DNA of 64,000 bases from Struthio camelus (Eukaryota; Chordata; Aves; Struthioniformes; Struthionidae), in the NCBI RefSeq assembly GCF_040807025.1, contig NC_090943.1, forward strand, positions 6,248,356 to 6,312,355. Direction: 5' to 3'. The notes under the pieces are model-generated. The model saw only the letters and a program-made list of their open reading frames with translations, was not told the DNA's origin and ran no database searches. A program made the translations under genes and the position numbers. Shown here piece after piece: positions 24,301 through 64,000 of the stretch. Position 1 is the first letter of the stretch, and every line of letters starts with the position of its first letter.

Positions 24301-24474
24301 AGCGGTGACGCGCGGTGCTGTTGCGGCCAATGGGCAGCGGCGGCGGCGGCGGGGGGTGGTTTTGGGGTGGGGGGGGGACAGGCGCCCGGCCCGCGGGGGG
24401 CGTCGCGCTGCCGCCGCGGGGAGGGGGGGGGAGAAGCCTCTGCCCCCCGCCCGCGTCGCACCTAGGGGACCCCT

Positions 24475-25600
24475 CATCCCACAGCCCGGATCGGACCCAG
24501 GCGGTCCCGTAGTCCGGATCGGACGGGGGGGGTCCCGCGGTCCGGATTGGACCAGAGGGACCCCCATCCTGCCACCCGTATCGGACTGAGGGGCTTCCAC
24601 AGATTGGATCGGACCGGGGGGTCCCGCGGTCCGGATTGGACCAGAGGGACCCCCATCCTGCCGCCCGTATCGGACTGAGGGGCTTCCACAGATTGGATCG
24701 GACCGGGGGGTCCCGCAGTCCGGATTGGACCAGAGGGACCCCCATCCTGCCGCCCGTATCGGGCTGAGGGGGTTCCACAGCCGGGATTGGACCAGGAGGT
24801 CCCACAGTCTGGATTGGACCAGAGGGACCCCCATCCTGCAGTCCATATTGGAGTAAGGGGGTTCCACAGCCTGGATTGGACCAGGGGGTCCCGCAGTCCG
24901 GATTGGACCAGGAGATCCTGAAGTCCGCATTGGACCAGAGGGACCCCCATCCTGCCGCCCGTATCGGACTGAGAGGGTTCCACAGCCTGGATCGGACCGG
25001 GAGATCCCGCAGTCCGGATTGGACCAGGGGGGCCCTCATCCTGCAGTCCGTATCAGACTCAGGGGGTCCCACAGCCAGGACTGGACCAGAGGGACCCTCT
25101 ATCCTGCAGCCCATATCGGACTAGGGGGTCCTGCAGCCCGGATCAAACTGGGGGGACCTGCTGTCTTGCAGCCGGATCAGGCCTGGGGACCCCCCCCCAT
25201 CCCACGGCCCAGGTCAGACGGAGGGGGTCCCTCAGGCCGGATGGGACGTGGGGGGTCCTACAGCCCAGATCAGCCTTGGGGACCTCCCATCCTACAGCCT
25301 AGATCAGACCAGAGGCAACCCCATCCCACAGCCCGGGTCAGACCCAGGCGGTCCCACAGATTGGATCGGACCTGGGGGTCCCGCAGCCCGGATTGGACCA
25401 GAGGGACCCCCCATCCTGCAGTCTATATCGAGCTCGGGGAGTTCCACGGCCTGGATCGGACCAGGGGACCCCCTGTCCTGCAGCCCATATCAGCCTAGGG
25501 GGTCCTGCAGCTCAGATCAGACCAGGGAGGGTCCCACAGCCTGAATCAGCCTGGGGGGTCCTGCAGCCTGGATCAGCCCTGGGGACACCCCTCCCCATAC
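24475..25600. repeat. Hierarchical minisatellite, 29-30 bp monomer in about 89 bp triplets
   Basis: The core GGATTGGACCAGAGGGACCC recurs at about 24543, 24632, 24722 and 24811, a spacing of 89-90 bp. Between these lie two related 29-30 bp monomers, one of the type CGTATCGGACTGAGGGGCTT and one GGATCGGACCGGGGGGTCCC, so three diverged monomers make one higher-order unit. Order is clean at 24.5-24.85 kb and decays rightward to about 25.6 kb. Long frames on both strands (up to 375 codons) arise because the monomer is near 30 bp and stop-poor; they are not genes. Confidence 0.9.
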
Positions 25601-38879: not shown

Positions 38880-40200
38880 GGGGAGGCAGCAGGGAGGGCT
38901 GGGGGGACCGGGGAGGGCTGTGGGGATTGGGGAGGGCTGAGGGGATCGGGGAGGGCTGAGGGGGGCCGGGGAGGGCTGAGGGGGCCGGGCAGGGCTGAGG
39001 GGATCGGGGAGGGCTGAGGGGATCGGGGAGGGCTGAGGGGGGCCGGGGAGGGCTGAGGAGGACTGGGGAGCGGGGAGGGCTGAGGGGGGCCAGGGAGGGC
39101 TGAGGGGGGAGCGGGCAGGGCTGAGGGGAGCTGGGGAGGGCTGAGGGGAGCTGGGGAGGGCTGAGGGGATTGGGGAGGGCTGAGGGGGGAGCGGGCAGGG
39201 CTGAGGGGATCGGGGAGGGCTGAGGGGAGCTGGGGAGGGCTGAGGGGGACCAGGGCGGGCTGAGGGGGGCCGGGGAGGGCTGAGGGGGGAGCGGGCAGGG
39301 CTGAGGGGAGCTGGGGAGGGCTGAGGGGAGCTGGGGAGGGCTGAGGGGGACCAGGGCGGGCTGAGGGGGACCAGGGAGGGCTGAGGGAGCCGGGGAGGGC
39401 TGAGGGGGGCCAGGGCGGGCTGAGGGGGGCCAGGGCGGGCTGAGGAAGCCAGGGAGGGCTGAGGGGGCCGGGGAGGGCTGAGGGGGGCCGGGGAGGGCTG
39501 AGGGAGCCAGGGAGGGCTGAGGGGGACCAGGGAGGGCTGAGGGGGACCGGGGAAGGCTGAGGGGGGCCGGGGAAGGCTGAGGGGGGCCGGGGAGGGCTGA
39601 GGGGACCGGGGAGGGCTGAGGGGGGCCGGGGAGGGCTGAGGAGGACTGGGGAGCGGGGAGGGCTGAGGGGGGCCGGGGAGGGCTGAGGGGGGCCAGGGAG
39701 GGCTGAGGGGGGAGCGGGCAGGGCTGAGGGGGGCCGGGGAAGGCTGAGGGGGGCCGGGGCGGGCTGAGGGGGGCCGGGGCGGGCTGAGGAAGCCGGGGAG
39801 GGCTGAGGGGGGCCGGGGAGGGCTGAGGGGAGCGGGGAGGGCTGAGGGGGGCCGGGGAGGGCTGAGGGAGCCGGGGAGGGCGGAGGGGGGCCGGGGAAGG
39901 CTGAGGGGGGCCGGGGAGGGCTGAGGGGACCGGGGAGGGCTGAGGGGGGCCGAGGAGGGCTGAGGGGGACCAGGGAGGGCGGAGGGGTCCGGGGAAGGCT
40001 GAGGGGGGCCGGGGAAGGCTGAGGGGGGCCGGGGACGGCTGTGAGGATTGGGGAGGGCTGAGGGCAACCTGACAGGTCTGAGGGGACAGGGCAGGACTGA
40101 GGAGGACGAGCCAGGGCGGGTGAGGCGGGAGCGGGCCGGGCTGAGGGAGGAGCCGGGCGGGCTGAGGGCGCCGGGCCGGGCTGAGGGAGGAGCCGGGCGG
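38880..40200 (+). repeat. G-rich minisatellite abutting the CRY-DASH promoter
   Basis: Roughly 60 tandem, length-variable units of the type GGGCTGAGGGGGGCCGGGGA fill about 1.2 kb, with a degenerate tail to about 40.2 kb. The plus strand is strongly G-rich. Most units contain four G-runs of three or more separated by 1-4 bases, so they fit the G-quadruplex pattern G3+N1-7. The antisense unit has no stop codon in any frame, which explains very long Pro/Ser-rich minus-strand frames (757, 611 and 545 codons) that I reject as genes. The array ends within about 80 bp of the CRY-DASH ATG. Confidence 0.95.
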
Positions 40201-40600
40201 GTCGGCGGAGGCAGGAACGGGAGCGGGAGCGGGGCCGGTGCGAGGCGGCGGCGGTGGCGGCGGCCGCGGCACCATGTCGGCGGCGGCCAGGACGGCGCTG
40301 TGCCTGCTGCGCAGCGACCTGCGCTGCCACGACAACGAGGTAGGGGCCCGGCCGCGGCGGGCCAAGGGGCGGCCGCGGCCCCCAGCCCAGCCCGGCTGCC
40401 GGCGCCGCCCCGGCGCCTTATGCAACCGGGAGGCAGCAACCATCCCCCTGCCCCGCCGCCCTCCGTCTTTCCTTTCTCCAGCAATACCCCGGCCTCGGCC
40501 CCGCTCCCAGGTGGGCTGCGGAGAAGCTCTGCCGCCGGCCCTGCCCTGCCCTCCCTCCCGGGGGGAAAAAAAAAGTGCCCCCCAAATAGTGTCACGGCCC
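40060..40600 (+). promoter_or_regulatory. CpG-island promoter of CRY-DASH
   Basis: GC- and CpG-rich sequence (GGCGGCGGCGGTGGCGGCGG just before the ATG) covers the 5' end, exon 1 and intron 1. It has GC-box-like elements and no TATA box. The transcription start is not determined, and the upstream half merges with the G-rich minisatellite. Confidence 0.6.
40274..40339 (+). CDS. CRY-DASH: CRY-DASH exon 1
   Basis: Codes residues 1-22 ([20 protein letters not shown], then NE). The ATG has A at -3 (GCACCATGT), and the start matches the conserved N-terminus of the family. Donor GAG|GTAGGG, phase 0. An in-frame GTG lies upstream at 40238, but the ATG is preferred. Confidence 0.93.
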
Positions 40601-43600
40601 TCTCTGTGTTTCCAGGTGCTGCACTGGGCTCAGAGCAACGCCGACTACGTCGTCCCCCTCTACTGCTTTGATCCCCGGCACTACCTGGGCACCCACTGCT
40701 ACCGCTTCCCCAAGACGGGGCCGCGGCGGCTCCGGTTCCTGCTGGAAAGCGTGAGAGATCTGAGGGAAACCCTGAAGAAAAAAGGAAGGTAGTCGAGAAA
40801 GTGGCCCACGAATAACGTGTCCGGTTTTATTTGCCGTGTGTTTTTCAACACGCGTCTACGCTCGAGGTCAATCCCGTCAGATACTCCGGGCTCTGACGGT
40901 GGCCCGTCCGTCCCAGAGAGCAACGGCCCTTGTGTCGGACGCACGCCGTCGCACGCTGGTCTCTCGCTGGCCGGGTCTTCAGGTGATCTGTGGCATCCAC
41001 AGGGGAGCAGAGGGCCGCTTGCCGCTCACGGGTTTGCTTTCTTGACTCAGACGCCACAGATGGGTTTCCGCGTTGAGTTTTTTGCCCAGAGTCCTGCAAA
41101 ACGGCGACATGGACTGCAGTTTTTCAAGTCCTCGGCAGCTACGCTAACCTGTGTGGCGTCCTTCCTTCCGTATCCCTAGCAGGGTTTCCCTAGGAGTTGA
41201 TGTGATGCGGAGGCAGGCCAGCATGGACCCTGGCGTATGAGACTAGAGAGTTAAGTTTGTTCATCTGTCCCACTAAACGTATACCCTTTGATAGGCTACA
41301 CTGCAGGAAGGAGATCTTCAGGGATTCCCCTTTCGTTATGCCCTGGAAGACTTCAGGAGCCGCAACTGGGTAGACCAAGGCCTGAAAGTCTACATGTTAA
41401 GGAATCCCATTACCAGATAACATTTGGCTTTGCTTAGCAGAAGATGCATCAGCCAGCCTGTCTTCAGGCAGGGCAGCACAACAGTGGTAGTAGAAACAAG
41501 AGAAATGGCTCTGGATGTGCAGTGCAGTGTGGGTTGTGTAGATGGCGAGTGCTATGGGAGACTGGGTGAAGCAACTGAGCAGTGCGTATCTACACCTTCA
41601 CCCTCCGGTGAACAGAATTGGAGCTGCTTTAATGCTCCAATTAATTAGTGGCATGGTTAATGATAAAGCCACTGATAAGAGATTGGTCTTCCCAGTGAGA
41701 GAGACGTGTGGTGCTGAAGAGCCACGCTAAGACCTATGCTCCACCTTCATGGCCGTGAAGTGTAATCTCATTGCAGTGATAGTAACAGCAGAAAGAAATC
41801 TCCTCCACTGTGGTGCTCCTTATAGGCAGTTTGATCTCTGCTTTCCTATGGGAAGTAAGGGGAACAGCTGCCCACACAGCACCCCTCGGTCCTGCCCTCC
41901 TCAGACCCACCCTGTCTTTGAAGAAACCTTTCAGTCATGGTTTAAATTGTCCTGACATTTTATTAACCTCTCCTGCAACTCCTTCAGGACAGATCTCTGT
42001 TGGATTGCACCATAGTTTGTGTGGCAGAGAAGGGGATAGAGTCTGGTGTCAGGCTCCTCACAGGACTCCATGCAACCAGCTCTGACCAGCTTTCTCACTG
42101 TGGCCTCTCTTTTAGTCTGGGCCCTTGAGTATACAGCTGGGCAGTCTCTGGGGTTGTAAAGGGCAGACAAGTTGTGACTCTGTTGCTAATCATGAAGAAA
42201 GAATCCCCCTGAATACTCCCACATGGAAGCGGAGGGGGATCTGCCCACAAGGCACCACTACCTGTTCACGGGATTGAGACAGTAATGAGCTCTTGAATCT
42301 CAGCCTCAGTATGTGAGGCTGAACAGATCTAACTTTAACTCTTAGGTAGCAGCCCAGCTTTGCTGCCCAATCACCCATTGTAAGGCTCCTGGAGGGTTTG
42401 AAATGTACTCAGTGCAAAGTGCCCCAGTGGCTTAGAAACTCTGTTCAGTGCATCCTAAAAAACGCGAGCTAGATGCAAAAAAATGAACGAATTGGACAAA
42501 GGTAAGGAATAAGTAATAGAAGCAGTCAGATCCTGTCTGTCTGCTTCCACATGCTGTCTGTGCTCTGTAGGGAACCTAGTACATGGGTGTCTGGGCCAGG
42601 GCTTCTGTACAAGGGGCTTCTGTACAAATAAATAACAATAGTATCAAACCTAATTCAGGCCAATCTTTTGTGTCTGCAGTACGCTAGTGGTGAGGAAAGG
42701 GAAGCCGGAAGATGTGGTCCATGATCTAATTACTCAGCTGGGCTCTGTGAGTGCTGTGGCTTTCCATGAAGAGGTAAAGGAAAGTTTTGAGTGACGTTGC
42801 TTAAAGATAGAATTTGTGAGGTTTCTTCCACAACCAATTGGCGATGCTCGTTTTGTACGTTCAGAGCCTTCCTTGAGCGTGGCATTGTTAACTGTAGGGG
42901 AACTGGCCAGTTCCTGGGAGGGGGGAGTGTAGATGTCAGTTCTTGCTGGATGGCAGCAGCGTTTGTGATCCCAACGATGGAGAATTTGGGACAGAAGGGT
43001 AAGAAAACTTAATTTGACAGCTTCCCCCATGAAATTTCTACCTAAGAGATGTCTCTTACAGAGAATCAGAGGCCTCCCAAGGCAGTGGTGGCCCTTTAAA
43101 CTGTAACTCAGCCTCTGTTCACTTGATTTGGCAGAAAGAGAGTACCCAGCAATTGTTTGCATGCAACTTCCTCTGAGTTGGTGAAGCTAAATGTGGAGAT
43201 GAGGGAGGAGGGGAGGACCAGAGTCTGTGTGCGTGAGGGAGCTGAGGTCGTGTAGCCATGGTCTCGCTGCATGTTGTTCTTTCTAGGCTACAAAGGAGGA
43301 GTTGGATGTCGAGAAAGGGCTGTGCCAGGTGTGTAGTCAGCATGGAGTGAAGATCCAGACGTTCTGGGGATCCACTCTGTATCACCGGGATGACCTTCCC
43401 TTCAGGCCTGTTGCCAGGTGGGATGCTCCGTGATGTCCTTCACTCCTCTTCTGTTTCATTTATTGCTTACTCCACTGAACCACTCAGGACGGATCTAGCT
43501 ATCCAGTTCTGCTGGGAGAGGACCCATTTGTCCATCTACATTTATGGAGCAGTGCTGTCATATACAGCAAGGGGAAGGGGCATGTTCATCCCTCTCTACC

Positions 43601-46600
43601 AGTAGCATTTACTCAACAGTATGTGTCAAGATGAGCGACTTGACTGATCATCGATTGAGGGGCTGATTTCTCTTTCTCCTTCCCCCACCACAGTTTGGAT
43701 ACTCAGTCTGCAGTGCCCAGAGACCCTGTGGCATTGGACTGGATAGCTCCATCACCCCATCTGGCTAAATGCAGGTGCTTATGAGAGTAGACCTTTGCAT
43801 GTGGGCTCTTCACCTTGGCTCCCGCAACAATCATTAGAGATCTAGTTGGTGGAGCTGAGTGATTCGTGTTATCCTATAGAAGTTCTATAAAATAGGGCAG
43901 AGGAATCAGGCCATAAAAATGTCTATTTCTCTCCATTGAAGCCTGAGGTTGCATACTTGTATATTGAGGTCAACCCTGTGGGCAATCTAAAGTTAGGTGA
44001 GATAAACCTTGCCCTCGTGGATTGTCCCATCAGGACACTCCATAAATCCCCCTTATTGAAAAGACACCATTTTGATCAGAAGCAGACAAAACCTGGGTGA
44101 AGGGCTGAATTTCTGATTGCTGCTATTCCCAAGGGAATCTACCTCTTTTGTGTCAGCTGATGTACAAACATGTACACCGCCCTCAGGAGAGCGCAGTCTG
44201 AAATGCTCATCCTCCGTCAGCAGAAGCTAACTGGTGCTGTGTGGAGGGGCCAGGGTAGCCATCCCCAGCATTGTAATCTGTGCAGATTGCCGGATGTCTA
44301 CACCCAATTTCGAAAAGCCGTGGAAACCGAGGCGAAGGTACGACCAACGCTACACATGGCAGATCAGCTAAAGCCTCTGCCTCCAGGGATGGAAGAAGGA
44401 TGTATCCCTACGATGGAGGATTTGGGACAGAAGGGTAAGAAAACTTAATTTGACAGCTGCCCCCATGAAATTTCTACTTAGAGATGTCTCTTACTGAGAA
44501 TCAGAGGCCTCCCAGGGCAGTGGTGGCCCTTTAAACTGTAACTCAGCCTCTGTTCACTTGTTCATCAAATCAGACGAATGACAGGCTGAAGGTAAACTCC
44601 TTTCATGGAGAAGCTGGGGTGGCAAGCCCTGTAGCTGAGTGGAAAATATCCTTTTAATCAGCATTTTTGAATGTGTTTGATGTGGCCCTTCTTGTTTCCA
44701 GGGATCACTGAGCACAATCATTTATTTCCCCCAAGCAGATAGCCCTAATGATGAACTCCCCTAGTTTTTATGCTCCCTGCCTCTGAGCTGCTTCTCGGGA
44801 CTAATTTTTCTTGATAACAAGCTGATGGTTATTTTTTATGGCAGATTTCATAACTGATCCACGAACAGCCTTCCCCTGCAGTGGAGGAGAGACCCAGGCT
44901 TTAATAAGGCTACAGTATTATTTCTGGGACACGGTAACTCTTTACATTTCCTTGTCTGCATCCTTGGCTGTGCAAGTGGGTGAGGCTGCAATTTCATTTC
45001 CTACTAATATTTCCTTAGCTCCTGTATAGCACTTTACGAAGGAGAGAATTAGCATTATATCAGTTTTTCAGAGAGAGAAACTGAGTCAAAAAGAAGTCAC
45101 CCAGGCCCTGGGATTGTAATCTAAGTTACTGGGAACCTAATTTAGTGGTTGACAGTCTTAAGACTTTTTTTTCCACCAGCTTTTGGGAATCGATACCATC
45201 TTTTGGCTCCTTTACCTTGATTTGCCCTTTCTACTCTCCCTCCCCAGGTCAGCAGCAGTTTAGTTCCTCCTCTTTGGAGGAGTGAGAAGTGGCCTGAAGG
45301 GCTGCAATTGTGACTGAGGTGAGGAACAACTGACCCAAGCTGCTCCCCCGGTGCCTCCATTACCATGCCTTCAGGGAGCGTATATAGTTCCTAATCCTGG
45401 CCAAGCATTAATACAGTCAGTGCTGGAAAACCTGTTCCCTTTTTGTGAGGCAAATGTTATCAGCACCTGATGATCTAGAAAGCCCGTTAGCAGTTGTAAC
45501 CCGTGCAGTCAAGGGGATCAGGGAGAGATCAGGCTTCCCTTTAATGTCCTTTGCATTGGCAGTGGAATGTCCAGAAAATGGAAAATCTGCACCAGTCTGT
45601 GAGCGGGGGTGGCCCAGACATAACAGTGGTCAGGATTCCTGCAGATGAATGTTGGGTGCTGCAGGACACTGTGGTGGACCTAGCCGCCAGTCCCAACCCG
45701 GCTGCATGTGGTGCCTCTGAGTGGATTATTGATCCAGAGTGAGATCTGTGCAGGCAGGGAGCAGCATGCATGGCGCCAGTTGCATGGCGCTTGTAGAAAG
45801 CAATGTGCCACAGGCTGAAGAGGAAAGCATGGCTTCTGACACACATCCCGGAGCTAAAGGGAAAACTGGTGGCCTGATTAATTCCAGTGTGTTGGAGGCA
45901 ATAGTTCGGCAGCCCTGTAATCCTTGCAGGCGGCCATGAGAGGGAGCCGGTGTCTGCCAAATTGCTCTGGCTCCGCTGAGAGCATGAGAGAAAGTGTGTT
46001 CTCCACGTTGCATGTTTGCTATTAACATCTTTTGTTCTTGTTGCTTGCACAGAACCTGGTTGCCTCTTACAAGGAGACAAGGAACGGACTCATAGGAATG
46101 GATTATTCAACCAAATTTGCACCATGGTAAAAATCTTTTGTTGTGAGACTTTAGGTTCCCTCTCTCCCCCGCTCCCAGATTAATGTTACCTCTCGGCTGG
46201 ACACTCATATGGTATAGATAGGGGTCTAGGTCTCATCCCCTTGTCCTGAGCTTTTTGTTTAGGGTGGAGCAATCTCAGAGCTGCTCTTTATTGTGCTCCC
46301 AGCCAGCAGTTCCCTGGGAACGGTCTTCCAACTAGGAATTTCTAAAGTGTAGCAGTGCCACAGCCAAGCACCCCGTGCGCTGTGAGTGGGCATGTGGACA
46401 GGGCACTGCAGAGACATGCAACTTGTCTTTGACTTTGCGCTGCTTTGTGTATCAAGAGTGGTTCAGAGCAGGCAGGGAAGAAGAGCAGCTTCACAAGCAG
46501 CATGTTGACTGGGCTGCAGCAGAACTAAATCCAGTCCTGATTTGCCGAATGTTTTGGGGCAAGTCACCTTGCCTCACTGCTATTCTGTTTTTCTGTGGCA

Positions 46601-49600
46601 ACGAAGGGTCACTTCTGATTGTTGCTATTGCAAAAGGAGCTCTCGCTTGTGTAAGTATCGTGACTTCTGATTACGGGTTTTAGTCTCCAGTGCTGGAAGG
46701 GACAGGGTTAATTCCAGGCTGAACCTGCTGCAGGAGAACTCAGTTTAGCCTAATGCTGAGAACATCTGGAGCATTTCCCTGACAGAATTGCAGTGTGAAA
46801 CAATTTTTTCTGGGGCTGTTTACTGGTCAGGGCTTCTTATTTTCAAGCAGCCTGTGTTTCAATGGCTGCAGTGGATGGCTCCCCCTGGTGGCACTGTGGG
46901 GTCCCAGGACCACTGGCACTACAGGAAGTTCTTTTTCTGTGGTAGCTTCCACTCCTGCTTTTGTGAGCTGGTGATTTATTTACCCGGAGCCAACAGTCCT
47001 GATGTGTCTGCCCCAAAGTGTTCTTCTGTCAGAGAATCAAAATCAGACCTTTTCAGGTTGCAACCAGTCATTCACATCTCATACTGGCCATTTCTAAATG
47101 TTAGAGCTGGTCAACAATTAAGGAAAAGCTTTTCAGACCCTTCCTTCCTGTTTTCCATAATTCATCAGAACGTTCAGAATGTTTCTGTGAGCTTTAGTGA
47201 GAAGTGGCTTTAAAATACATTGCTAGGAAAATCAAAGTAAACGTTGTTTCTTGGATCTCCCTTTGCAAAAGGTTAGAATGTACAAGCTCTCGCCCGTCTT
47301 GCATAGCAGTGATCTGGAACGAGTGGAAGGAGCCCCGTGGGTTGAAATGCTAGGGTTGGGTTCAGTTCCCTGCTTTTCCTAGCCTGTCTGAGATTTTCAG
47401 CAAGTCCTTGGCCTTCTGTGAGTTATGGTTGCTCAGATGAGACGCTCAGATACTGCAGCAATAGGAGCTGTAGACATGATAAACAGGTTTGTAGCAGAAG
47501 GAAGGCTGTTCAACAGCTAAAGCAGACAAGGGAGAAGTTGATGTTTGGGATCCGTTTCTGGGTTTGTCATTGATACACCAAGTCCCTGGCTGATAGGAGA
47601 AAGTCTTTTAGGCGAAAGTTGTCAAACTTCTGTAAAATGATCTGTCTTGGTAGCTTGGTGTCTACCATAATAGTCATCTAAAACAGGAAGGAAAGATTGT
47701 AATTTTTATTTTCACTTGGAGTTGCAAAAATGTCATATGACTTGACAAAAGTTGTTCGGGAAGTCAGTGGAGAACAGCAGACTGAGCTAAGGTTTTCAGA
47801 CCGCAACTCTAAGCACAAAACTGCCCCTCCACTCCCTCTCTGCAGGTGTCCAGCTGTCAGTCCCTTCTTGCATTTCAGCCATCTTCCTTCTGCTTTCAGG
47901 CTGGCATTAGGCTGTATTTCACCTCGATACATATATGAGCAGATCCGGAAGTATGAAAAAGACAGAACGGCCAATCAGAGCACATATTGGTATGACCCTG
48001 CATGATATCTGTGGCTTGTTTTCTCTGAAAAGCAAACTGGCTTCTCATGCACAGGATAGAGTGATTTGTTAATTTTCTCCTTAATTAATGTTTGGTTTTC
48101 CTGTGCCTGCTGCCTTGTTCCTCTGCGTTGCGTTGCCCTTCTGTTTCAGTATGGATTTATTAATCTGCCTTTGGCATCCAGAGGCTTTAGGTACTTTATA
48201 AGTCAAGATTATTAGTGCTAGTTGTCATTATTATTGCTGGGAAATCGTAGTTCATAATTTTTAAAAATGATCTCTGTAAATCAGCACCATCCCTCTCTGA
48301 ATTGTTATAAGGAGCTAGATTAGAAGGGGGAAAAATGACTTGAAAATAAAAGTTAAAAGATTTCTCATCACGATGATATGAGCAGAGTTTCACCCAATAT
48401 TTAGCATCTCAATGACTGTGCAACTTGTGCAAATCGCACAGTGTCAGAAGCACCGCAGGACCTCTGGCCACAGTCCTGCAAACAGCCCTGCACTTATTCA
48501 GCTGCCTGGCCATGATCACAGCTCCATAGCAAGGGGAAGAGCAGACTTAGAAGTGGGCTTAATGCATCCAGCCTTCCCGTGCACTTCCTTACCCCACTGC
48601 TGGCTGCTCACCAGCCTGTGGGTTGTGCTGAAGGAGCCTGCACTGCTGAGGGAGGGACAGTTGAGGTCAGTGTATCTGTCTCGGGGCTGGCCTGTAGCTT
48701 GCTCGTATGCTCCTGATCCACACAGACACAGCGAATTAAAGCGTGGACCTAGCTAAAGCACTGAGCTAAGAATCAGCTCTTGTAGCAGTTAGGGGAAGAG
48801 AGGTTGGGGCAGCCTGTTAGTGCAGGCTACGGAGATGGCAGTGAATTGGGTGTTGAGGATATGCTCAGATGCACACTTATCTGGCAGTGTGGCTGAAACC
48901 CCCAAGAGATCACTTGTACTTCAGCACGGAGCTATTATGGAGAAGCAGGTTCACATTAGAGCCTGGACTAATACTAGACCTCCATGGAAAAAAACAGAAC
49001 AGAAAGTCTGTGCAAATTGTAAAACTGTGTTTTCATATTGCTTTGTAACATTTGCATCATGTTAAACAGCACAAAGGCTGGGGAAGAACAGGCAGAACAT
49101 TGGCAACGGTTGTGGCCAAAATACTCAGTTTCATTGAAATCCAAATAACAGACAAAATATTGACCTGTTTGTGTGTGTACTTTCTTTTTCTTCAAAGAGA
49201 ATTAAAAGAGGAAAGATTTCAAGAAATGAACATACTATTTTTTTTCCATCTAACATCCAGCTAGCCTGTCTGCAGCCTGGGCTCCATGGTGATCTGAGCA
49301 TTTTAAAGTGATAAATGATTATTAAAAAGAACCTGTTAAGACCGCAGGCACTCCTGTCAACGTACAGACAACACAGTGAAGCCCAGGTCTTTGGTGGCTG
49401 CTCACGAGGGGCTGATTGAATCTCTGTCTCAGGACTGTGGTTTTCAGCATTTGGGACAGTTTGTTTTATAGTCAGGATTTCCAGAGCTGAAACATGAGCT
49501 GAGCAGCATATTCCCAATATCCCAAATTGCTGAAGCAGCTCTCAGAGGCTGAGATGCCATGACTTTTATAAAAATTCTTGTTTATATAAATTGTTTTTAT

Positions 49601-52600
49601 ATATCTGCCTATTTTCTGCAGGCCTAGCACCTGATCTCATGAGGAAGGCCGCTGTAAGCCCAGTTCCGAAAAGTGCCTTTAAGTCCCTTTATTGCTTAAA
49701 TCCCTGCAGAGCTCTTAGGAGTGTGCTGACATGCTTGCCCATGCGGAAATACAAAGCTGAATCAGGCCCCCATCCTGCTCTTTGCAGAATTATATGCCAG
49801 GAGGGATGAATCAGAAACCGTTTTCCTGAAATTCTGCTCTTGCACTAGAGCTAAGAAAGGCCTCCCAAGTGATCCACATAAAGTGTGCTTTTCACCACAA
49901 TCGTCTAAGTGCAAGCTAGATTAATAGGTTTGGGGCAAGAATCGGTAGCAGGGCAAGGTAGGCGAAGCTGCTCATTGTAAATAAACCTCACGGTGCTGTT
50001 AACGAAGGGCGCTATAGAGACAAAATCCTAATTCAGTAATTTTCTGGTCCACAGTGAAGATAGATAAAGACTTGGCTCTGTGTTTTAGGGTCCTATTTGA
50101 ACTGCTGTGGCGGGATTACTTCCGATTTGTGGCCCTGAAGTATGGCAGAAGGATTTTCTCACTGAGAGGTGTGTATGGATCACTCTGTTTGCAGGGGAAA
50201 GGGGCAATCATACAACAGGGAAAGGAAGAGAAGAGTCTGTGAGCATTGCGTTGTACAAACGCTCTTCTTCTAGCACTTGCATCACTACCTTAGGATGTTA
50301 CCAGGGTTGGAGCAAGAGGGGAGTTTGCATTATGTTATCAAGTCCCCTTATGGTGAGTTTATTTGAATACTCACCAGTGTTGCCATTTTAATGATACTGG
50401 GCACTACCCAGTGGCAACAGCTGTTGTCCTTCATTTAGTGAACTTCTGATTAGCAGAGAAGTGCCTGAACACCGTGATGCTGGGTGATGTGTAGACACTG
50501 AGAGCGTTTCGCCCCCAAAACTGATTAGACAAAGGGAATGTTTTTAACACGTCAGTGGGAAATGGCAGCACGATAAGAATAAAGACGCTGTTTGCGGAGA
50601 CACTCTGGAGCCTTTGGAGAGACTCAGGCTTCGGGACTTGCCAAAATTCACCAAAAAGTTTGGGCAGAGCACGAACTGACCCAGCAGTGTGAATCCCAAG
50701 ACACTGGCTGTCTTTTCTGCTTTGTGCTACTTAGGAATCAGAGTGGGATTCAGCACGAGACCCAGTCACCTAAATGCTGGTATCTACAACCGAAATGGGA
50801 GTCTGAACTCCCAATAGAGCAATGGTTATCCAGCCCGTATATAGTCAGGAAGCCTTACAGCCGTGTTGAGTTAGCTGCTCTCCATGTGATTTAGCTGCTC
50901 ACACCTAAGCATTTAGCATTCTTCCTGGCAGCCAGCTGTTGCTCCAGAGGGATACAAGTCTCTCTCAGGGCCTGTGTCACATCTGTCAGGCCCATGTGAC
51001 TGTCTTAGATGCCATAGGGCATCTCACGGGGCCCTGGATGCCTAGAGTCAGCCTAAACTTAGGCCCTTAGAGCCAAACCTGAGTCATCCCTGCTCTTTCC
51101 CTGCAGCTGTACAGAGAGGTGTAATTTCCAGATAAGACTTAGAGCCCGCAGCACGTGAAGACGTATTTTGGAAAAGCAGTAGCCTTATCCTTCATATCCT
51201 GGCTAGAATACAGGATGGAAAATCTTAAACTGAGTACATTTCTTCTGCAGTTTCAGTGGGATGTAAAAGATAGCTGATACCCTGCTTGCGTAAAGCTTCT
51301 GATGAAGAAGGCCAGTAGGGGCTGCATTTCAGCATGGATGACATAGCTCCTGTAGACTAAATGCACTGCGTGTGGCACATGGTGACCCTCCAGAAGAATG
51401 GTACACCGCTGCTGAGGAACACACACAAATGTGCAGGCGCATCTGCCCATGCCTGTCCTGCAGAGTGAGCCACTAGGACCATTTTGAATGGTTTGTAATA
51501 TGGGGCTTTTGATGGCGTCTATCAGCTATCTTTCAGAGCAGTTACAAAGGTGACTCCATTTCACAAAAAAGAACGCTTGATGCCTGTGAAAGTGGGCCTC
51601 TTACTCAAGGCCACCAGTGATCAAGAGTTGGCCATCAGGAACTGAGGCTGCCGTTGGGCCCCTGCAAACACAAAATCTTTCCCTCACCCACCCCTACTCA
51701 ACTGCAAGAGCAAGGTGTTACCAGGAACTTCTGGCAGGTAATTCTGGGCTCAGCAGTTGATACAGATAGGAACTTCATATCAATATTGTCTTGGAGTAAA
51801 ATTGAACAAGAAAACACTAGCTTGGGCCAGGGTGCATCTCCAACTTGTGAGGTCTGAGTCATTTTGGAGTTAACCCTCCCCTCCCCCCCCCCCAATAAAT
51901 CAAATAGTCAAAGTCCAGCAGAGTTTTAGCATCTTCGGTGTGCAGGCACCCCTTTGCCATGCTTGGAAGGAGGAGCAGATCTCTAAATCCTTGTAGAAGG
52001 AATCTGGCTTTTTTTTAATGTCACTGAGACGGCTAGCTGCATCCTAAAGTCTTGTGTCAACGAAGGTGCCTCTTTGTCGTCCTTGTTTTATTTGTAACTG
52101 CCTGTGTCAGCACTTGTCTTCATTGGCAGTTCATTTCTTTCTTCAACAGGGCTTCAAGATAAAGAGGTCCCCTGGAAGAAGGACCTTCAGCTCTTTGACT
52201 GTTGGAAAGGTCAGTGGAGATTACAGGTTCGGTCAGGTATGCTCTCGGTTTGCTTGTGTCTGTATGCCAACACATACCCGAGTGCTAACTCAGAGTTACA
52301 CAGGGGGAATTGCCAGCGTGAACAGGCACTGTCATTTAAACTGTTCTCACCAAACAAGAATCCAGACCCTCAGTTCAATGTGAGTGCAGGATGCTTAGCT
52401 TTCCTTCTGGGACTGGGCACCACATAGGAGCAAGCCCATAGTTATCACAAATGGCCAAGCTCTGGCTTCTACACACATTATGAGAGGCACTGCGGTTAGA
52501 TTTTCCTGCTCAAGTGGAAGCGTTTATGGCCCGTTGGTCCCTTCTGCCTAGTCACACAGGGGCCAGCTTGCGCTTTTTATCACTACTAGGTTGCCATGCC

Positions 52601-55600
52601 TGCTAAGTTTTGTTCTTCCAAAGGGTTCTGGTTGGAAGGTTAAACAGTCTCTAGAATAAAGCCCATCTTCCATTATGCCCCACAGGTCTTTAATATTCTT
52701 GCTTTTATTTAGCTTTTATAACTTTGTTTTCACAAGAATAGCAAAGATAATACCTCAAAACTAGGAGGGACTAACAGATTAATGTATCAGGATCTGAAAT
52801 ACACAGCTATATATCCTTCTTCGCTTTAATGTCATATGTATCCATTTGCACACAGGTACAATAAATCTTTTTCTCAACTATAGAAAAAGTTTGCTGCTCC
52901 TCATTTACTAACCCTTGGGGATTTGTCCGTTACTTCCCTCTCTATTATTAGTCACCTCTCAAGACTCGTCCTGTTCTCAGTCCATCTCCCTGTTGTTTGT
53001 ATATTTATTTTGCTCAAATTCCCTGCAATCCACCTGAATCATTGTTTTCCATTCTGATGATTTTTCTATGCCTTGTTCTTGCCAAAAATTCTCCTTGTTT
53101 AATTTCCGATTTAATTTCCTATTTAATATCCAGTGGATCTTAATGGCTCTATCCCAGCTAAACCCTACTGAAATCTCCCCAGGAAAATGCTTTTTTCCCT
53201 CCTGCTGCCGGTTGGCACTGTCTTTCCTGCTTGGATGGCTGCAAATGCGCAACCACAGGTTGGTTACGAGTGCCTGCCCGATAATGTCATCGCGTCCCAG
53301 CACTGTGTCTTTTGTCTCTGCAGAAGGCAAAACAGGGGTTCCTTTTGTCGATGCCAACATGCGAGAGCTGGCCGCAACGGGCTTCATGTCTAACAGAGGG
53401 CGGCAGAACGTTGCCAGCTTTCTCACCAAGGACCTGGGTCTCGACTGGAGAATGGGGGCAGAATGGTTTGAATACCTGCTGGTAAGAGCGAACCCATTGT
53501 GCGTCCGGAGTCGTTTGTGCTCTCTAGCCTGGGCGACAGACAGAAGGGCAGCTCTGCCTGATAAGGATACAGAAGGTGGTCAGTACTTTTCAGGATGATA
53601 TAAGTGCATGTATATAGTACTTGCATTTTATGTACCTCCCAAAGCTAATGTAAGAAAAGCGAGTTTTGCTGCTGTGAAGTTGCCATCAGCCAAGATGTAG
53701 ATGTAGCTAGGAAGTTTGCAATGATGTTTTTGTTCTTCCCATGTAGGCTTTTAGAGCCACTTGAGAAAACTATAAAGCACTTGAGAAAACTATAAAGCAT
53801 AAAATATCTTAACAATGCTCTGATTTGCTCACCCCAGAGGCTGGGCAGGAGGATAGCCCAGAAATAGAACATAAAAATGAGTACATTTTGGCCATGAAGC
53901 CCATGTTGGCACAGCATCTTTCCATTGATCGCTCTGGATAGGGAAGTCTTCTAGCCAAGAACAGGCAAGTATGGACAATGGCTGGATCAGCTTCCAGAGG
54001 TCTCCACCCTGGTTGGAGGCATCCTTCTTCACCCTGGTGAGTCACAGGCCTTCTTGCCAACTGGAGCACCAGCTCGACTTGTTTCTCTTATGCCAATCAG
54101 CAGGCATGCAAGCTCAGTTAGATAGCAGGGCTGCTCCACCCCTGGCCTCCACAGCTCCTTCCCAGGAGGGTCTGAACAGGCTCACAGTCCCCAGTTCAGA
54201 AGCCTGGGCAGGACTGTGTATGTTTGCTTGGTTGCCATTATCTTCTCTTTCTTTTAGTATTACCAAGCTGTGTTGTGAAAACTGATGCTGAGGAGCTGAA
54301 GTTCTTCACCAGAATGGTACAGATGTAATAAGACCAAATATTAGTGTCAGCCTCACATTGACTTTCTGGTCTGTGAGGTACAAGAGGCTGTTGATAATCA
54401 GGAGATTTTCCACTCACTGGTATGGCTGGAGATACAAAGCCCAGTCACCTTGCCAGTGCCTGCAATTAAAAGATCCCTTTCATTAATGTAACAGTTTTGA
54501 GCTTCCTTGGAACAGCGCTCCGACACGGCTTTGGCTGCAGAGATCCACAGTAAGACCTGGCTGCTCCTCCCATTGCTGTGACTCACACTAGTGCAGTGAG
54601 CAGTGGTGGGTTTGCACAGTTGCACAGTGTGGTCAGGACTCCTCCAGGATCCTCCAGAAAGTGGTATTGGTAGCTCCACACAGTGATGCTTTTCCAGATA
54701 AGACTTAGAGCCCGCAGCACGTGAAGACGTATTTTGGAAAAGCAGTAGCCTTATCCTTCATATCCTGGCTAGAATACAGGATGGAAAATCTTAAACTGAG
54801 TACATTTCTTCTGCAGTTTCAGTGGGATGTAAAAGATAGCTGATACCCTGCTTGCGTAAAGCTTCTGATGAAGAAGGCCAGTAGGGGCTGCATTTCAGCA
54901 TGGATGACATAGCTCCTGTAGACTAAATGCACTGCGTGTGGCACATGGTGACCCTCCAGAAGAATGGTACACCGCTGCTGAGGAACACACACAAATGTGC
55001 AGGCGCATCTGCCCATGCCTGTCCTGCAGAGTGAGCCACTAGGACCATTTTGAATGGTTTGTAATATGGGGCTTTTGATGGCGTCTATCAGCTATCTTTC
55101 AGAGCAGTTACAAAGGTGACTCCATTTCACAAAAAAGAACGCTTGATGCCTGTGAAAGTGGGCCTCTTACTCAAGGCCACCAGTGATCAAGAGTTGGCCA
55201 TCAGGAACTGAGGCTATGCTCTCACCAGCAGGCAGCCTCGCCTCCCTCAGATGGGAGCTTTGCTCACCGCACAGTCAGACCCAGCGGGGCATAGGAGATT
55301 CAAGGTCCTCCTCCCCAAGTGAGAAAGACCTGGATGGTCTCACACAGAAAAGATGCTCAGTGAGTTACTGTTATTCATACAGGCATGAACGTTAGCAGCC
55401 TTGCTGGAAGCCTGATTTGGCTCTCTTTGCATTAGACCTTTCAGAAAGCATCTCACTGCCTCTCTGCAGGTGGGCCTGGCACTGGCTGGTCCTTGTGTCC
55501 TTCCATCCCTTCCTTTCAGCTTTGTCACACTGATTGCTAAAGAGCTCTGGTTCTTTAACCCAGTGGCTCACCCAGAGTGACACGCAGGGGGCATCAGTTT

Positions 55601-58600
55601 GACAAGGAGATACAGCTATAGAACAGTACAGGCTAGCACAGAACTGAAACTGGGGTCATGTAGCTCCAAGCAGGGAAAATGATGCATTTTCTATCTCTGA
55701 CACTTTCACCGAAGGCTCACAGAGTGTTTGCATATGCCTGCAAAGGAGAGGATGTTTGTCATCCACACAAGACAGGCAGCGAGACGAAGACAAGCTCTCC
55801 AAAACCTGTCAAAGCCAGGGGAAAGGCTGGATCCCTCTGGCATCCAAAACAGAGAATATGTCTAGCTCTGATTTCATTCATAGGGTCAGTCCCCAAAGAA
55901 AGAGAGAGAAACAAACAGAAGAGAATTGCAGGAAGGGGCAAGGCTAGGGGGGAAATGAGCCTGCCTCTTCCAGTCCCCCTTGGGTTTGCCCTCACCTCCC
56001 ACATACACTGTTTCCTGCATGTTAATCGCGCAGTCGGGCCTCCGATGGCATCTCTCTTCCCTTCCTTATCTTACTAGCTGGAGGAAGTGCTGCTGAGAAA
56101 GGGAAGCCTGCACACAGCGAGCACAACTAGCTGTCGATCAGCCTGTGCCCAGCTCTTGGCTGGCTTTGCGAAGAAAAGGGAAGGGAACTTGGCACAGTCT
56201 GTTCCTCTGCGCCTTCTACTATGTGGGTGCGCTGATCTCCCCGCTCTGAGGAGCGGCTGTGATTTTGGAAGTATCGCTCTGTGGCCTGGGCGTCGCTGTG
56301 GCTGCAGTGAGGGGAGCAGAGAACAGCCCTGAACCTGTCTTGCAAGACTCTGCAGACTCTTTGTGCCAGGCTTTTGCAATGTGGACATCTCTCCTGGGAG
56401 TGCACAGAAATCCCACACCCGATGTGCTATCACTGCCGCACCCCTCCTGAGCTAGGTTTAAATTGCTCTACGACTGTAAAGCTTTTGATGTTGGATTTAA
56501 GCCACTGAGCCCAGCTGAAAACCACTGAGTGGACGGTGTTCTTCTCTCCCTGTTACAGAAACCTTGTTCCATTTTACACAAGCATCTCTGAGACTCTTTT
56601 ATCTGTTTAGATGTTAGAGAACTCTAGTGTTTCCCATAGTAAAGCACCTCTCGCTGCCAAATCCCTGTGAGTTGAAGCTAGTGGCCTGATGAAAGTCGAG
56701 TATAGCAGGAAAATGGCTGCTGTGTTGGTACTGTTTGCATCTTCATACCCTCTGTATGGTCACTCTGTATAATCTGAGTTAGACTTTTCTCCAATCTGTC
56801 TAATAGGATCTGCAGAGATGATTTTGCTAGCCCGTGGTATCTGGGTAACAGGCCAGGAAGAATTTTTCTATAGAAATGTACTGGCCTACTGATTCTTGAA
56901 TATGAGCACTCAAAAGCTAGGGATAGTGGTCAAATATCTTAAAGTCCGCCAGATGACTCTGCCAGCAGAAAGAGAAGGATTAAAAAAAAAGAAAAGAAAA
57001 TTGAGAAAGACAGGGACTTTGGTTGGACTTTACCTATCCCATTGACTTAAGGACCATGAAGAGAAGTAGTCTGGGAAGCTCTCCCAGCTGTGCAAAACGG
57101 TCATGCAGCCTGGTCCTCTTCAGAGGCAGATGGTTCTATGTGGGAGTGCTTTGACACTCTCACATGGAGAGTGCAGACAGATTAATTCCCATACAAGCAC
57201 TTCTCCCTTTGAGAGAAGAGGTGGACGGGGAGAGGAGGGTCACCAAGGGCAAGCTCATCTCTTCATACTATTTTCTTCCTGTGTGCTCAAGGTGGACTAC
57301 GACGTTTGTAGCAATTACGGGAACTGGTTATACAGCGCTGGTATCGGCAACGATCCAAGGGACAACAGGAAGTTTAACATGATCAAACAAGGCCTGGATT
57401 ATGATGGCAATGTAAGTCCTTTTTGGCTGCCTTACAGTGAATAGCACAGCAAAGCACCACACGAGTGAAGCTTTCTGAAGGTTTCAACAGAGTGCTCATG
57501 TGAGAAATGTCTGGTGACGGCAGCAGTTTAGAACCCTAGGGAAGTGACTACATTAGACAGAACAGCTAAATCTCAGTTACAGGTCCCTGTTTTGTGTTAG
57601 AGTCTTACAGGGAGCATGCAAGGATCTCTTTACATTCGTATGTGATAGTCCCATGGAAGAGAGACCAATCTGCTGTGTGGATACTGTTTCAAGAAAAGTT
57701 CTTTGATCTCGCCAGTAGTCAGGCAGGTCTCACTGTTGTACAGGAAGATCTGACGTTTACAATCTGCTGCTGTCCCCAAAGAGGGTGGTGCTTTGTAATC
57801 CTTCCTTGCCATTGGGCTGTGTGGTTGGTGTTTCATCACCATTTCTTCTGGGTAACAGCCACATCCCATCAATATCTCATGCAACCATTTCCTCAAGTAC
57901 AGAGCAGGTTCTTGAAGCACTCAGATGTGATGAACAGGAGAGAGCGAGCAGCTCACCTGGCACTGAGGGAGGGGCTGGAGATTAGATTAATGCCTATGAC
58001 TTGTCTGACTCTGCAAGTGGTGCGAGCAGATAAATTGCGCTTTCCATGTGCTTAACTGCCGTTTATGTACTGGGTTGTGTACTGGAACCTGGTTACTGGG
58101 TTCTTAGCTTCGTGGCGAGCTGGCAGTGTTGCCTCCCTGCAGTGTAGCTGACAGAACATGGGAAGAAATCAAAGCTTGTCCTAGCTGGGGACACAGCAGT
58201 GGAGTTTATGGGAGACATTTAGGGTTGAGGGCGTTTCATCTTGTTCAAGTACACAGGTGTGCAGCTGAGCTAGTCATCCTGGTGTCCTTCACAGTCACTG
58301 GAAAGAAAAAACAACTTCTTGGGAGTGATTTCATTTCACCCTATCCTAAATAGCGCAGGTCGACCGTACCCAAAAAGCAGCTCTGTGTCTCTCCATTGCC
58401 TGCAAAGGGAGCTTGGGAGAGGAGCCCCAGCCTCAGTGTCTCTGTGTTTCGGCGGCACTAATTCTGGGTTGAGGAGTTTAACAGGAGGGGCTAAGGCTTG
58501 ACAGAGGTAACTGAAGCTGTAGTGCATCCGCTTCTTCACTTAGAAATCAGGCTTCTTTCCTTCATGTTAAGGAAGACCCTTGCTGGGAAGCATGTACAGA

Positions 58601-60747
58601 TCACTACTGAATGGATGCCATCGCTGTGGTTGTGTTTGCAGGGGGATTACGTCCGGCTGTGGGTGCCAGAACTACAGGGCATAAAGGGAGGAGATATCCA
58701 TGCACCTTGGGTACTGAGCAGCACCTCTCTCTCTCAAGCGGGAATAACTCTAGGCGAGACCTACCCACTACCAGTTGTGACAGCCCCGGAGTGGAGCAGA
58801 CATATCAGCCAGAAGCCTGTGAGTACTGGGAAGGTTTGGGGGCAGAAGAGGGGCAGGGGTGCAGGCAGTTGCTCTGTGTGAATTCGACTATGTTGTTCAG
58901 ATATAAAGGGGAAAAAATGGTTTAATCAAAGTCACATTACCTCACAGAAGAGGGTGGTCCTGCTCTACACAAGGACTGTGCAGCCAGGGTTATTGAGGTG
59001 TGTCTGTGCTAGTAAACTAAATACACCTGAGGCACAGGTCCAAGTACTGACCTGCTGTCACCCAAACTGTTAAATTGTTAGTGTATTCCCTGGCACTGTT
59101 TTAGCCAGGGCTAACCAGCACCTTCCAGGACCATGTCAGGGCGGTTTGAGGGTACCACGTGCCAAGGAGTGTCAAAAAAGACAGGCTTGACAAAGCCACT
59201 CTATGCCATATGGGCAAAAGCTGTACCAGGCTAGTTGGCTTTACAGCTATAGAATGGACCCATTGTGCTTTATTTCTGTTTTGTGTATAGCTTTTATTAC
59301 TCAGGTTTTTTCCTCCTGCATATACATGTTGCCAGATATACCAGCTGTGGTGACTGATGCAGATTTTAGCTGCTTCTTTATCCCATCGGCCCTGCAGACC
59401 TAGCAAAGCTTAGAGAGAGCATGTCTGCCACTGCATCCTTCCCTGCCCTCCAGACACCACCAACCCTGGCAGCCCCATGCCAAACCCCAAGGGGTCGGAT
59501 ATCTGTGAAGGCTTCCACTGGCCTAACTACCACCTTACGCGCACAGACAGACGGGAGCCCAGCATGATGCTCAGTTCCCACTCTCTGTGTACGGTGGGAA
59601 GTAAAAACAACTGACTTCTTAACATGCTTGTGTGCATCCAAACTGGAGTTACTAAGAGCACTGAATATGGGGACTGGAGGCCCTTGGACTTGGCTTTTGG
59701 GGTCCTGGTCCTTTATAACGAGAGCAGATTAAGAACTGCATCCTGTAAAGTGTCAAGCATGTCAGACTTGCATCTGTTAAGTGGATTGCTTTTCTTGGAG
59801 GAGATGGATAAGGAAGGAAAGTGCTCTGTAGGTCTGGGTAGGGGTCAGTGGTGGTGGAGGTGGAAGGGAAGAAGGAAGGGGAGAACCAACACTATTGTTT
59901 TTTTCAAGGGGTTTTCAGCATTTTGTCTTTCCTCATGCATACTCCCTGCTTCCTCCCAAGTAAGGCTACTTTGTGGAGACTCAGATGTAGTTGTCATACT
60001 ATGTTCAGTGAAGAATGAAATGAGTTTCCATGTGGGGTTTTAATTCCAAGGCCCAGTTCCAAAGTTCTCAGGCCAGATTCCTTTGACATGAGTGGAAAGT
60101 TTTACTGAAGCAAGGATGTCCACTTCCAGCCACGCTGTTGAAGAGCCTGGATTGTCACTCTTTGTTTAAGGGGGAAGGAACCCCTTGGTGAGGCACTAGT
60201 TTAATGCAGTGATGAAACTTGAATCCAAAAAGCTCTTCAGTCCAGCAGGAATTTCATGCTTATCAGCTTTCCAGCTCACCTTGGGCTCTCTGTGGTTTTC
60301 ATTGCCGCACTGTGTTTGTGAAATCCTAACGCTCTGGGGAGGGACTGTTGGCCCAAGGTTACTGAGGTCTGGAGAAGAACCTCCATCCCTGTCTGCCACC
60401 CTTAAATTAAGTATCAAATCCCTTTGAAATGACAGGCCCATGTCTTACTGGAAACCATACTTTCCTAAGTCCCAGACTAGAACTGCGTCTATAAGACCTC
60501 CCTTCCTTTTTGCTGCTCAGCGGGGTAGAAGCACCACTTGAACATTTTTCTGATTAATACTGTCTGTTGAGGCTGCTTGTGATCAGATTCGCCGTCATGG
60601 GCGATGAATTGGACCTCACCATTCATCTTTCATTTGCAGCAGGGAAGAGGCCACCATCCCAAGGGGAGGAAAGGTCCTGCACACACACCAACACAGCACA
60701 AGGACAGAGGGATAGATTTTTACTTTTCTCGCAAGAAAGATATATGA
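40274..60747 (+). CDS. CRY-DASH: Cryptochrome DASH, complete gene of 14 coding exons
   Basis: Exons: 40274-40339, 40616-40788, 42680-42773, 43287-43417, 44286-44434, 44845-44933, 46053-46126, 47900-47989, 50089-50168, 52150-52209, 53324-53481, 57292-57411, 58642-58818, 60640-60747. All junctions are GT-AG with matching phases, giving 1569 nt (522 residues plus stop), the usual family length. The N-terminal photolyase alpha/beta (antenna) domain covers about residues 5-170 and contains [10 protein letters not shown] and [14 protein letters not shown]. The FAD-binding helical domain follows, with [22 protein letters not shown] (about 286-300), [13 protein letters not shown] and [17 protein letters not shown] (358-374). 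By alignment with photolyase, W324, W377 and W400 fit the electron-transfer Trp triad. The C-terminal [12 protein letters not shown] is a CRY-DASH signature. Family members bind FAD and a folate antenna and repair pyrimidine dimers, mainly in single-stranded DNA. No break is seen. Confidence 0.95.
40616..40788 (+). CDS. CRY-DASH: CRY-DASH exon 2
   Basis: Acceptor TTTCCAG, donor AAG|GTAGTC, ends in phase 2. Codes residues 23-80, including [10 protein letters not shown] and [13 protein letters not shown] of the antenna domain. Intron 1 is only 276 bp. Confidence 0.95.
42597..42627. repeat. Short tandem duplication GGGCTTCTGTACAA
   Basis: Two adjacent near-identical copies of GGGCTTCTGTACAA lie in intron 2, just 5' of exon 3. 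Confidence 0.85.
42680..42773 (+). CDS. CRY-DASH: CRY-DASH exon 3
   Basis: Acceptor TGTCTGCAG, donor GAG|GTAAAG. Codes [20 protein letters not shown] and [10 protein letters not shown], residues 80-111. Confidence 0.95.
42968..43125 (+). repeat. Partial duplicate of CRY-DASH exon 5 plus intron 5, in intron 3
   Basis: About 158 bp matches 44404-44560 with about six substitutions and one single-base indel. It carries the last 31 bp of exon 5 (ACGATGGAGAATTTGGGACA then GAAGG) and an intact GTAAGA donor, but lacks the exon's acceptor and 5' part. It lies upstream of exon 4, so it is a potential decoy donor. Reading ATG GAG AAT TTG GGA CAG AAG G gives MENLGQK, against MEDLGQK in the true exon. 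Confidence 0.93.
43287..43417 (+). CDS. CRY-DASH: CRY-DASH exon 4
   Basis: Acceptor TTTCTAG, donor CCAG|GTGGGA. Codes residues 112-155, including [17 protein letters not shown]. It is flanked on both sides by the two copies of the exon-5-derived duplication. Confidence 0.95.
44286..44434 (+). CDS. CRY-DASH: CRY-DASH exon 5
   Basis: Acceptor CTGTGCAG, donor AAGG|GTAAGA, ends in phase 1. Codes [18 protein letters not shown] and [11 protein letters not shown], residues 155-205. Its 3' 31 bp and the following intron are duplicated at 42968-43125. Confidence 0.95.
44404..44560 (+). repeat. Source copy of the exon 5 / intron 5 duplication
   Basis: It overlaps the last 31 bp of exon 5 and the first 126 bp of intron 5. 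It is taken as the parent because it joins the complete exon. Confidence 0.9.
44845..44933 (+). CDS. CRY-DASH: CRY-DASH exon 6
   Basis: Acceptor TATGGCAG, donor ACG|GTAACT. Codes [20 protein letters not shown] and FWDT, residues 205-234, the GGET motif of CRY-DASH. Confidence 0.95.
45030..45115 (-). repeat. MIR-like SINE remnant (CRY-DASH intron 6)
   Basis: Sequence such as GCATTATATCAGTTTTTCAG followed by AGAGAGAAACTGAGTC and AGTCACCCAGGCCC resembles the antisense MIR core (ATTTTACAGATGAGGAAACTGAGGC ... AAGTGACTTGCCCAAGG). Diverged. Confidence 0.4.
46053..46126 (+). CDS. CRY-DASH: CRY-DASH exon 7
   Basis: Acceptor TTGCACAG, donor CCATG|GTAAAA, ends in phase 2. Codes [20 protein letters not shown] and APW, residues 235-259, the TKFxPW loop at the FAD site. 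Confidence 0.95.
47351..47420 (+). repeat. MIR-like SINE remnant (intron 7)
   Basis: GGTTCAGTTCCCTGCTTTTC and later TTTCAGCAAGTCCTTGGCC recall the sense MIR/CORE-SINE pattern (GGTTCGAATCCC ... GGGCAAGTCACTT). Weak. Confidence 0.3.
47900..47989 (+). CDS. CRY-DASH: CRY-DASH exon 8
   Basis: Acceptor TGCTTTCAG, donor TATTG|GTATGA. Codes [20 protein letters not shown] and TANQSTYW, residues 259-289. Confidence 0.95.
49985..50030 (+). repeat. SINE 3'-tail remnant (intron 8)
   Basis: AACGAAGGGCGCTATAGAGA resembles the GAAAGGCGCTATAnAA terminal motif of old amniote SINEs. Short. Confidence 0.3.
50089..50168 (+). CDS. CRY-DASH: CRY-DASH exon 9
   Basis: Acceptor GTGTTTTAG, donor AGAG|GTGTGT. Codes [20 protein letters not shown], residues 289-316, the highly conserved core of the FAD domain. 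Confidence 0.95.
51125..51649 (+). repeat. 525 bp direct repeat, copy 1 (CRY-DASH intron 9)
   Basis: It runs from TTTCCAGATAAGACTTAGAG to GCCATCAGGAACTGAGGCT. Every base compared by eye is identical to 54691-55215, and both copies are exactly 525 bp. It contains no recognised element. A 65-codon minus-strand frame (51253-51450) is simply present in both copies and is not taken as a gene. Confidence 0.95.
52150..52209 (+). CDS. CRY-DASH: CRY-DASH exon 10
   Basis: Acceptor TTCAACAG, donor AAAG|GTCAGT. Codes [20 protein letters not shown], residues 316-336. W324 aligns with the surface Trp of the photolyase triad. Confidence 0.95.
53324..53481 (+). CDS. CRY-DASH: CRY-DASH exon 11
   Basis: Acceptor GTCTCTGCAG, donor CTG|GTAAGA. 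Codes residues 336-388, including [30 protein letters not shown] and [14 protein letters not shown]377 is a probable triad residue. Confidence 0.96.
53759..53798. repeat. 20 bp perfect tandem duplication
   Basis: Two head-to-tail copies of ACTTGAGAAAACTATAAAGC lie in intron 11. Confidence 0.95.
54691..55215 (+). repeat. 525 bp direct repeat, copy 2 (CRY-DASH intron 11)
   Basis: Identical to the intron 9 copy as far as I can read, same orientation, 3566 bp downstream, with exons 10 and 11 between. Flanks differ: CAGTGATGC before and ATGCTCTCACC after. Confidence 0.95.
57292..57411 (+). CDS. CRY-DASH: CRY-DASH exon 12
   Basis: Acceptor TGTGCTCAAG, donor AAT|GTAAGT. Codes [20 protein letters not shown] and [15 protein letters not shown], residues 389-428. 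W400 aligns with the FAD-proximal triad Trp. The preceding intron, 3.8 kb, is the longest and holds one copy of the 525 bp repeat. Confidence 0.96.
58642..58818 (+). CDS. CRY-DASH: CRY-DASH exon 13
   Basis: Acceptor GTGTTTGCAG, donor CCT|GTGAGT. Codes [20 protein letters not shown], then an APW motif and [13 protein letters not shown], residues 429-487. Confidence 0.95.
60640..60747 (+). CDS. CRY-DASH: CRY-DASH exon 14 (terminal)
   Basis: Acceptor CATTTGCAG, tandem with a second CAG (NAGNAG). Codes residues 488-522: a basic Gly/His/Lys-rich stretch, then [17 protein letters not shown] and TGA. The final DRGIDFYF block is the conserved CRY-DASH tail. Confidence 0.93.
   Translation, partial: QGRGHHPKGRKGPAHTPTQHKDRGIDFYFSRKKDI

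Positions 60748-61260: not shown

Positions 61261-64000
<2,740 letters not shown>

Follow-up and report, generated by a model that had tools for sequence, protein, structure and literature searches.

Two identical 525-bp direct copies around exons 10 and 11 of a predicted CRY-DASH gene: a probable recent proximal duplication

Introduction

Two direct copies of a 525-bp unit, identical to one another, lie in two introns of a CRY-DASH gene and bracket its exons 10 and 11, which raises the question of how the second copy came about and why the two are still the same. A preliminary description of this stretch of DNA (64,000 nt, hereafter the window) had put forward three options, namely a very recent duplication, ongoing gene conversion and an assembly artefact, and had pointed out that recombination between the copies would delete the enclosed exons. 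The structure of the pair, its copy number in the genome and its breakpoints are the focus of the present analysis.

The repeat pair

As the preliminary description had reported, positions 51125–51649 (copy 1) and 54691–55215 (copy 2) of the + strand are direct copies of each other, identical at 525/525 positions (a maximal exact repeat); they are 3566 bp apart from start to start and enclose a spacer of 3041 bp (51650–54690, + strand) which holds exons 10 and 11. The match ends sharply on both sides, the neighbouring bases differing immediately and the flanks being unrelated. When the window was scanned for exact repeats of at least 20 bp, the runner-up among the 40 longest direct pairs listed measured 76 bp, the shorter listed direct repeats belonging either to the minisatellites at ~24 kb and ~39 kb or to an older pair within CRY-DASH (45 and 39 bp; see below), and the longest inverted exact match in the window was an AT repeat of 32 bp. 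The 525-bp exact match is beyond chance. A further small change is located between the two copies at 53758–53799 (intron 11), where a perfect 20-bp tandem duplication is present.

The host gene

The gene model was built from the best 80 of 550 bacterial CRY-DASH relatives, 77 of the 80 giving a frame of more than 400 aa with one of three motifs; the bacterial proteins align to the + strand in 12 clusters, from 40559 to 58866, with 29–77 alignments each. Joining the exon peptides by hand yields a rough protein of 474 aa, which scores 634.7 bits against the DASH cryptochrome model TIGR02765 of NCBIfam (cut-off 317.05), the next of the five profile models compared giving 217.9 bits, and among the five solved chains that match this joining best, three are named cryptochrome DASH. 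On this evidence, the gene around the repeat pair is predicted to be CRY-DASH, TIGR02765 being matched above its cut-off and ahead of the other photolyase models.

Copy 1 is found in the intron following exon 9 (50089–50168, + strand, edges placed by eye from the sequence), and copy 2 in the intron preceding exon 12 (57292–57411, + strand, edges placed by eye from the sequence and the alignment). Between them, exon 10 (52150–52209, + strand) and exon 11 (53324–53481, + strand), both delimited by AG/GT edges and protein alignment, measure 60 and 158 nt, so that the earlier assignment of the copies to introns 9 and 11, with 218 nt of coding sequence in between, holds. Exon 10 contains W324 and exon 11 contains W377, a numbering that, read off the alignment, is correct for the rough 474-aa joining; we take these residues to be two of the three tryptophans in the photoreduction chain. 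DASH-CRY has been reported from turtles and most birds, and the crocodile list given in the same source does not include it (PMC9498864). The host of the present gene is probably a bird.

Copy number and correctness of the assembly

The unit was searched for in its own genome (1,451,902,618 bases, 1.45 Gb, in 262 contigs), repeat counts in this search being lower bounds as very common words are skipped. Two places were found, corresponding to copies 1 and 2 (both candidates were scored), and the 3041-bp spacer was found at one place; a second contig carrying the spacer, such as an alternative allele would give, was not seen in the same search. The preliminary description had proposed that hundreds of copies would make the unit an ordinary interspersed repeat: with two places in the genome (a lower-bound count), a young interspersed repeat is rejected and the duplication is left unrefuted. 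In viral contigs, no exact match to a 30-base pattern of the unit was found. An ancient SINE tail of the MIR type, considered as a possible marker of donor and acceptor, is likewise not supported, the unit giving a Smith-Waterman score of 23 (one strand) with a hand-typed MIR consensus, when 300 random 605-mers of the window, scored on the better of both strands, gave a median of 25 and a 95% point of 36.

The search also bears on the possibility that a single real copy was written twice by the assembler, by polishing or by gap-filling. The perfect identity would agree with such an error; false duplications, which resemble the present case in being identical local copies, persist in modern assemblies, making up 2.3% (zebra finch) and 0.5% (hummingbird) of those of the VGP, and 61–92% of the VGP false duplications lie on the same scaffold (PMC9516828). 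Gaps between the members of a pair are, however, described as a hallmark (PMC9516828), low read depth and discordant reads being further signs, whereas the CRY-DASH copies lie between unique flanks, have no gap between or around them, and are surrounded by 260 kb in which, as in the window itself, there is no N; moreover, the spacer was found once, and the flush 5-bp target-site duplication described in the next section would not be expected of an artefact. Such an error is therefore considered unlikely.

Target-site duplication and direction of copying

The pentamer ATGCT abuts copy 2 flush on both sides (54686–54690 on the left and 55216–55220 on the right, both on the + strand); copy 1 has no flush target-site duplication, even if a shift of up to 5 bases is allowed at its edges. 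In the window, 91 of 63445 positions show a flush match of 5-mers spaced 525 bp apart, as do 274 of 200000 random position pairs, which gives a chance of ~0.0014 per copy and ~0.003 for two. Because the flush ATGCT is found at copy 2 only, copy 1 is read as the donor and copy 2 as the insertion; the breakpoints thus suggest that the intron 9 sequence served as the template. The reverse direction, with copy 2 as the source and copy 1 as the insertion, is at odds with a flush target-site duplication that only copy 2 bears (at the low chance given above), and it is very unlikely.

A short target-site duplication could also be the trace of a reverse-transcribed transcript fragment or of a transposable-element insertion; indeed, among the templated sequence insertion polymorphisms described by Onozawa and Aplan, those of class 1 (LINE-mediated) combine a non-templated poly(A) with a target-site duplication measuring 5 bp or more (PMC5110952). 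Neither end of copy 2 carries a poly(A) or poly(T) stretch of at least five bases: the ends read ATGCT/TTTCC and GAGGCT/ATGCT (the slash marking the junction), with a longest T run of 4, so that the CRY-DASH copy falls outside class 1. The position of the donor, just 3 kb away and in the same orientation, also speaks against this origin, and the two genome places argue against an abundant element family; a reverse-transcribed or transposed fragment is accordingly quite improbable.

Age of the pair and gene conversion

With 0 differences in 525 bp, and assuming a bird host and no conversion, a mutation rate of 1.01e-8 per site per generation, given as the mean of the bird species studied (PMC9995274), puts the 95% upper bound on the age of the pair at ~283,000 generations. 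If yearly rates between 1e-9 and 3e-9 are assumed, the bound is 1–3 million years, and by simple arithmetic it rises to ~18 million years at 0.16e-9 per year, the rate of the slowest bird in that source (PMC9995274). How recent the event is depends on the species: it hinges on the mutation rate of the host, and the age bound is loose if that rate is slow.

Identity alone does not separate youth from an old duplication that is held identical by ongoing gene conversion. Direct copies 3 kb apart are able to exchange sequence. In the present case, however, the identity reaches the very edges of the unit and stops at the 5-bp target-site duplication, whereas conversion over a long period should have left the margins diverged, and the other local pair of the gene, with its copies 1279 bp apart, is only 95.6% identical. 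Conversion is not needed to explain the identity, and maintenance of an old pair in this way is quite unlikely.

A proximal repair-mediated duplication

Among the three options listed at the outset, a very recent duplication is, as far as can be judged from the sequence, the best supported, because the whole unit is identical, its edges are sharp, the target-site duplication is present at copy 2 only and two genome places were found; the artefact has become unlikely and conversion superfluous. In particular, the pair is probably the product of a recent germline proximal repair-mediated duplication from intron 9 to intron 11, a mutation class that is ordinary and already known. A staggered double-strand break would have occurred in intron 11; a nearby template, the 525 bp of intron 9 located ~3 kb upstream, would have been captured or synthesised in direct orientation; fill-in would have left the 5-bp target-site duplication ATGCT; and the event would be recent enough for neither copy to have changed a base. 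The direction, the repair pathway, the youth of the event and the correctness of the assembly at this locus are all points that we infer. No function of the duplicated unit is indicated.

Proximal repair-mediated duplications have been described by Pace, Sen, Batzer and Feschotte (2009; PMC2671141) as intrachromosomal copies of 50–619 bp whose donor lies less than 5 kb away at one other place, without poly(A), often intronic and present also in chicken, all of which resembles the CRY-DASH case. Indeed, the ~3041 bp between the two copies exceed the 50 bp required and stay below the limit of 5 kb; the unit, at 525 bp, lies between the minimum of 50 bp and the published maximum of 619 bp; its ends are free of poly(A) and poly(T) stretches of at least five bases, and poly(A/T) is likewise absent from all the examined proximal duplications (0/39; PMC2671141); and a copy number of two (a lower-bound count) also fits the class. 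On the other hand, the CRY-DASH copy would stand at the long end, the 824 human duplications with a donor within 5 kb having a mean length of 162 bp, and its 3041-bp distance would exceed that of most, 753 of the 824 being under 3 kb apart (PMC2671141). A target-site duplication (4–21 nt) is present in 6 of the 39 examined proximal cases and absent from the other 33, and in 0/39 is it the sole feature, another always being present (PMC2671141); at CRY-DASH, ATGCT is the only visible breakpoint feature, which would be unusual for the class, although the others (microhomology, filler or a small deletion) can be scored only against an empty site. In chicken, six proximal repair-mediated duplications are reported, i.e. 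they are rare (PMC2671141).

Other known systems fit less well. Templated sequence insertion polymorphisms are similar in that a unique genomic piece is copied and the donor stays intact, but they stem from distant regions (PMC5110952), whereas the CRY-DASH donor is 3 kb away; in particular, class 2 insertions have a distant donor and no target-site duplication (PMC5110952), and a near copy flanked by ATGCT is not of this kind. Segmental duplications share the low copy number and near identity, but by definition they exceed 1 kb at more than 90% identity (PMC2671141), a length that the 525-bp unit does not reach. If the proposed origin is correct, the pair would be a clear-cut case of proximal duplication, without mutation so far, in which an apparent target-site duplication separates donor from acceptor.

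An older local pair elsewhere in CRY-DASH

CRY-DASH contains another local pair, in which 42948–43125 (intron 3) matches 44387–44560 (running from the 3' end of exon 5 across its splice donor into intron 5), with a core of 158 bp at 95.6% identity. The intron 3 copy retains the splice-donor sequence of exon 5, which may act as a decoy splice donor. The presence of this older local copy would be compatible with the process proposed for the 525-bp unit; against a common process stands the lack of a flush target-site duplication at the older pair (0–1 base).

The frequency of such pairs was estimated on 260 kb around the gene (the window is 6248356–6312355 of contig C2, of 173.7 Mb) and on 50 kb of contig C1 (225.6 Mb), with BLAST at E up to 1e-3 and a distance of 50–5000 bp between copies. 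Of the 8 rows obtained from the 260 kb, two are the direct CRY-DASH pairs, four are direct and overlap with tandem arrays, and two are inverted pairs at ~82%. No pair came from the 50 kb of C1 under these conditions, nor at E 1e-8 whatever the distance. At identities of at least 85% over at least 80 bp and at any distance, two further pairs, far apart, were found in the 260 kb. Apart from tandem arrays, the 310 kb thus contain no direct proximal pairs other than the two in CRY-DASH, which lie within about 12 kb; this is no more than a hint at a clustering of local copies in CRY-DASH, in a sample that is small and centred on the finding itself.

Possible loss of exons 10 and 11

As computed from the coordinates, a crossover between the two copies would remove 3566 bp together with exons 10 and 11. 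The consequences that had been predicted for it (a loss of 218 nt, a frameshift and the removal of both W324 and W377) are correct on paper, according to the exon lengths, the translation and the alignment: exon 9 would be joined to exon 12 out of frame, with six codons (GGLRRL) followed by a stop, as read by eye. Since the apparent minimal segments for human meiotic crossover are 300–500 bp (PMC2583991), 525 bp is long enough on paper, and the pair might be a crossover substrate for the loss of the two exons; if real, it would mark a site in a vertebrate CRY-DASH gene where recurrent deletion with loss of function can be tested. The more far-reaching proposal that repair-mediated local duplication has a hot spot in the CRY-DASH gene of this lineage, and that the young pair drives a recurrent 3.6-kb deletion segregating in the population as a natural null allele, is very unlikely.

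Surroundings of the gene

At the gathering score, Rfam gave 0 matches in the window. Two minisatellites precede the gene: one is GC-rich (24466–25584), its nested periods including 27, 62 and 89 bp, and the other is G-rich (38892–40201), with a 20-bp unit in ~65 copies, and ends ~70 bp before the likely start codon of CRY-DASH, placed by eye at ~40274. Downstream of CRY-DASH, the first exon of MYD88 is located at ~62445–62798 on the + strand, with matches to the Death domain and to MyD88 chains.
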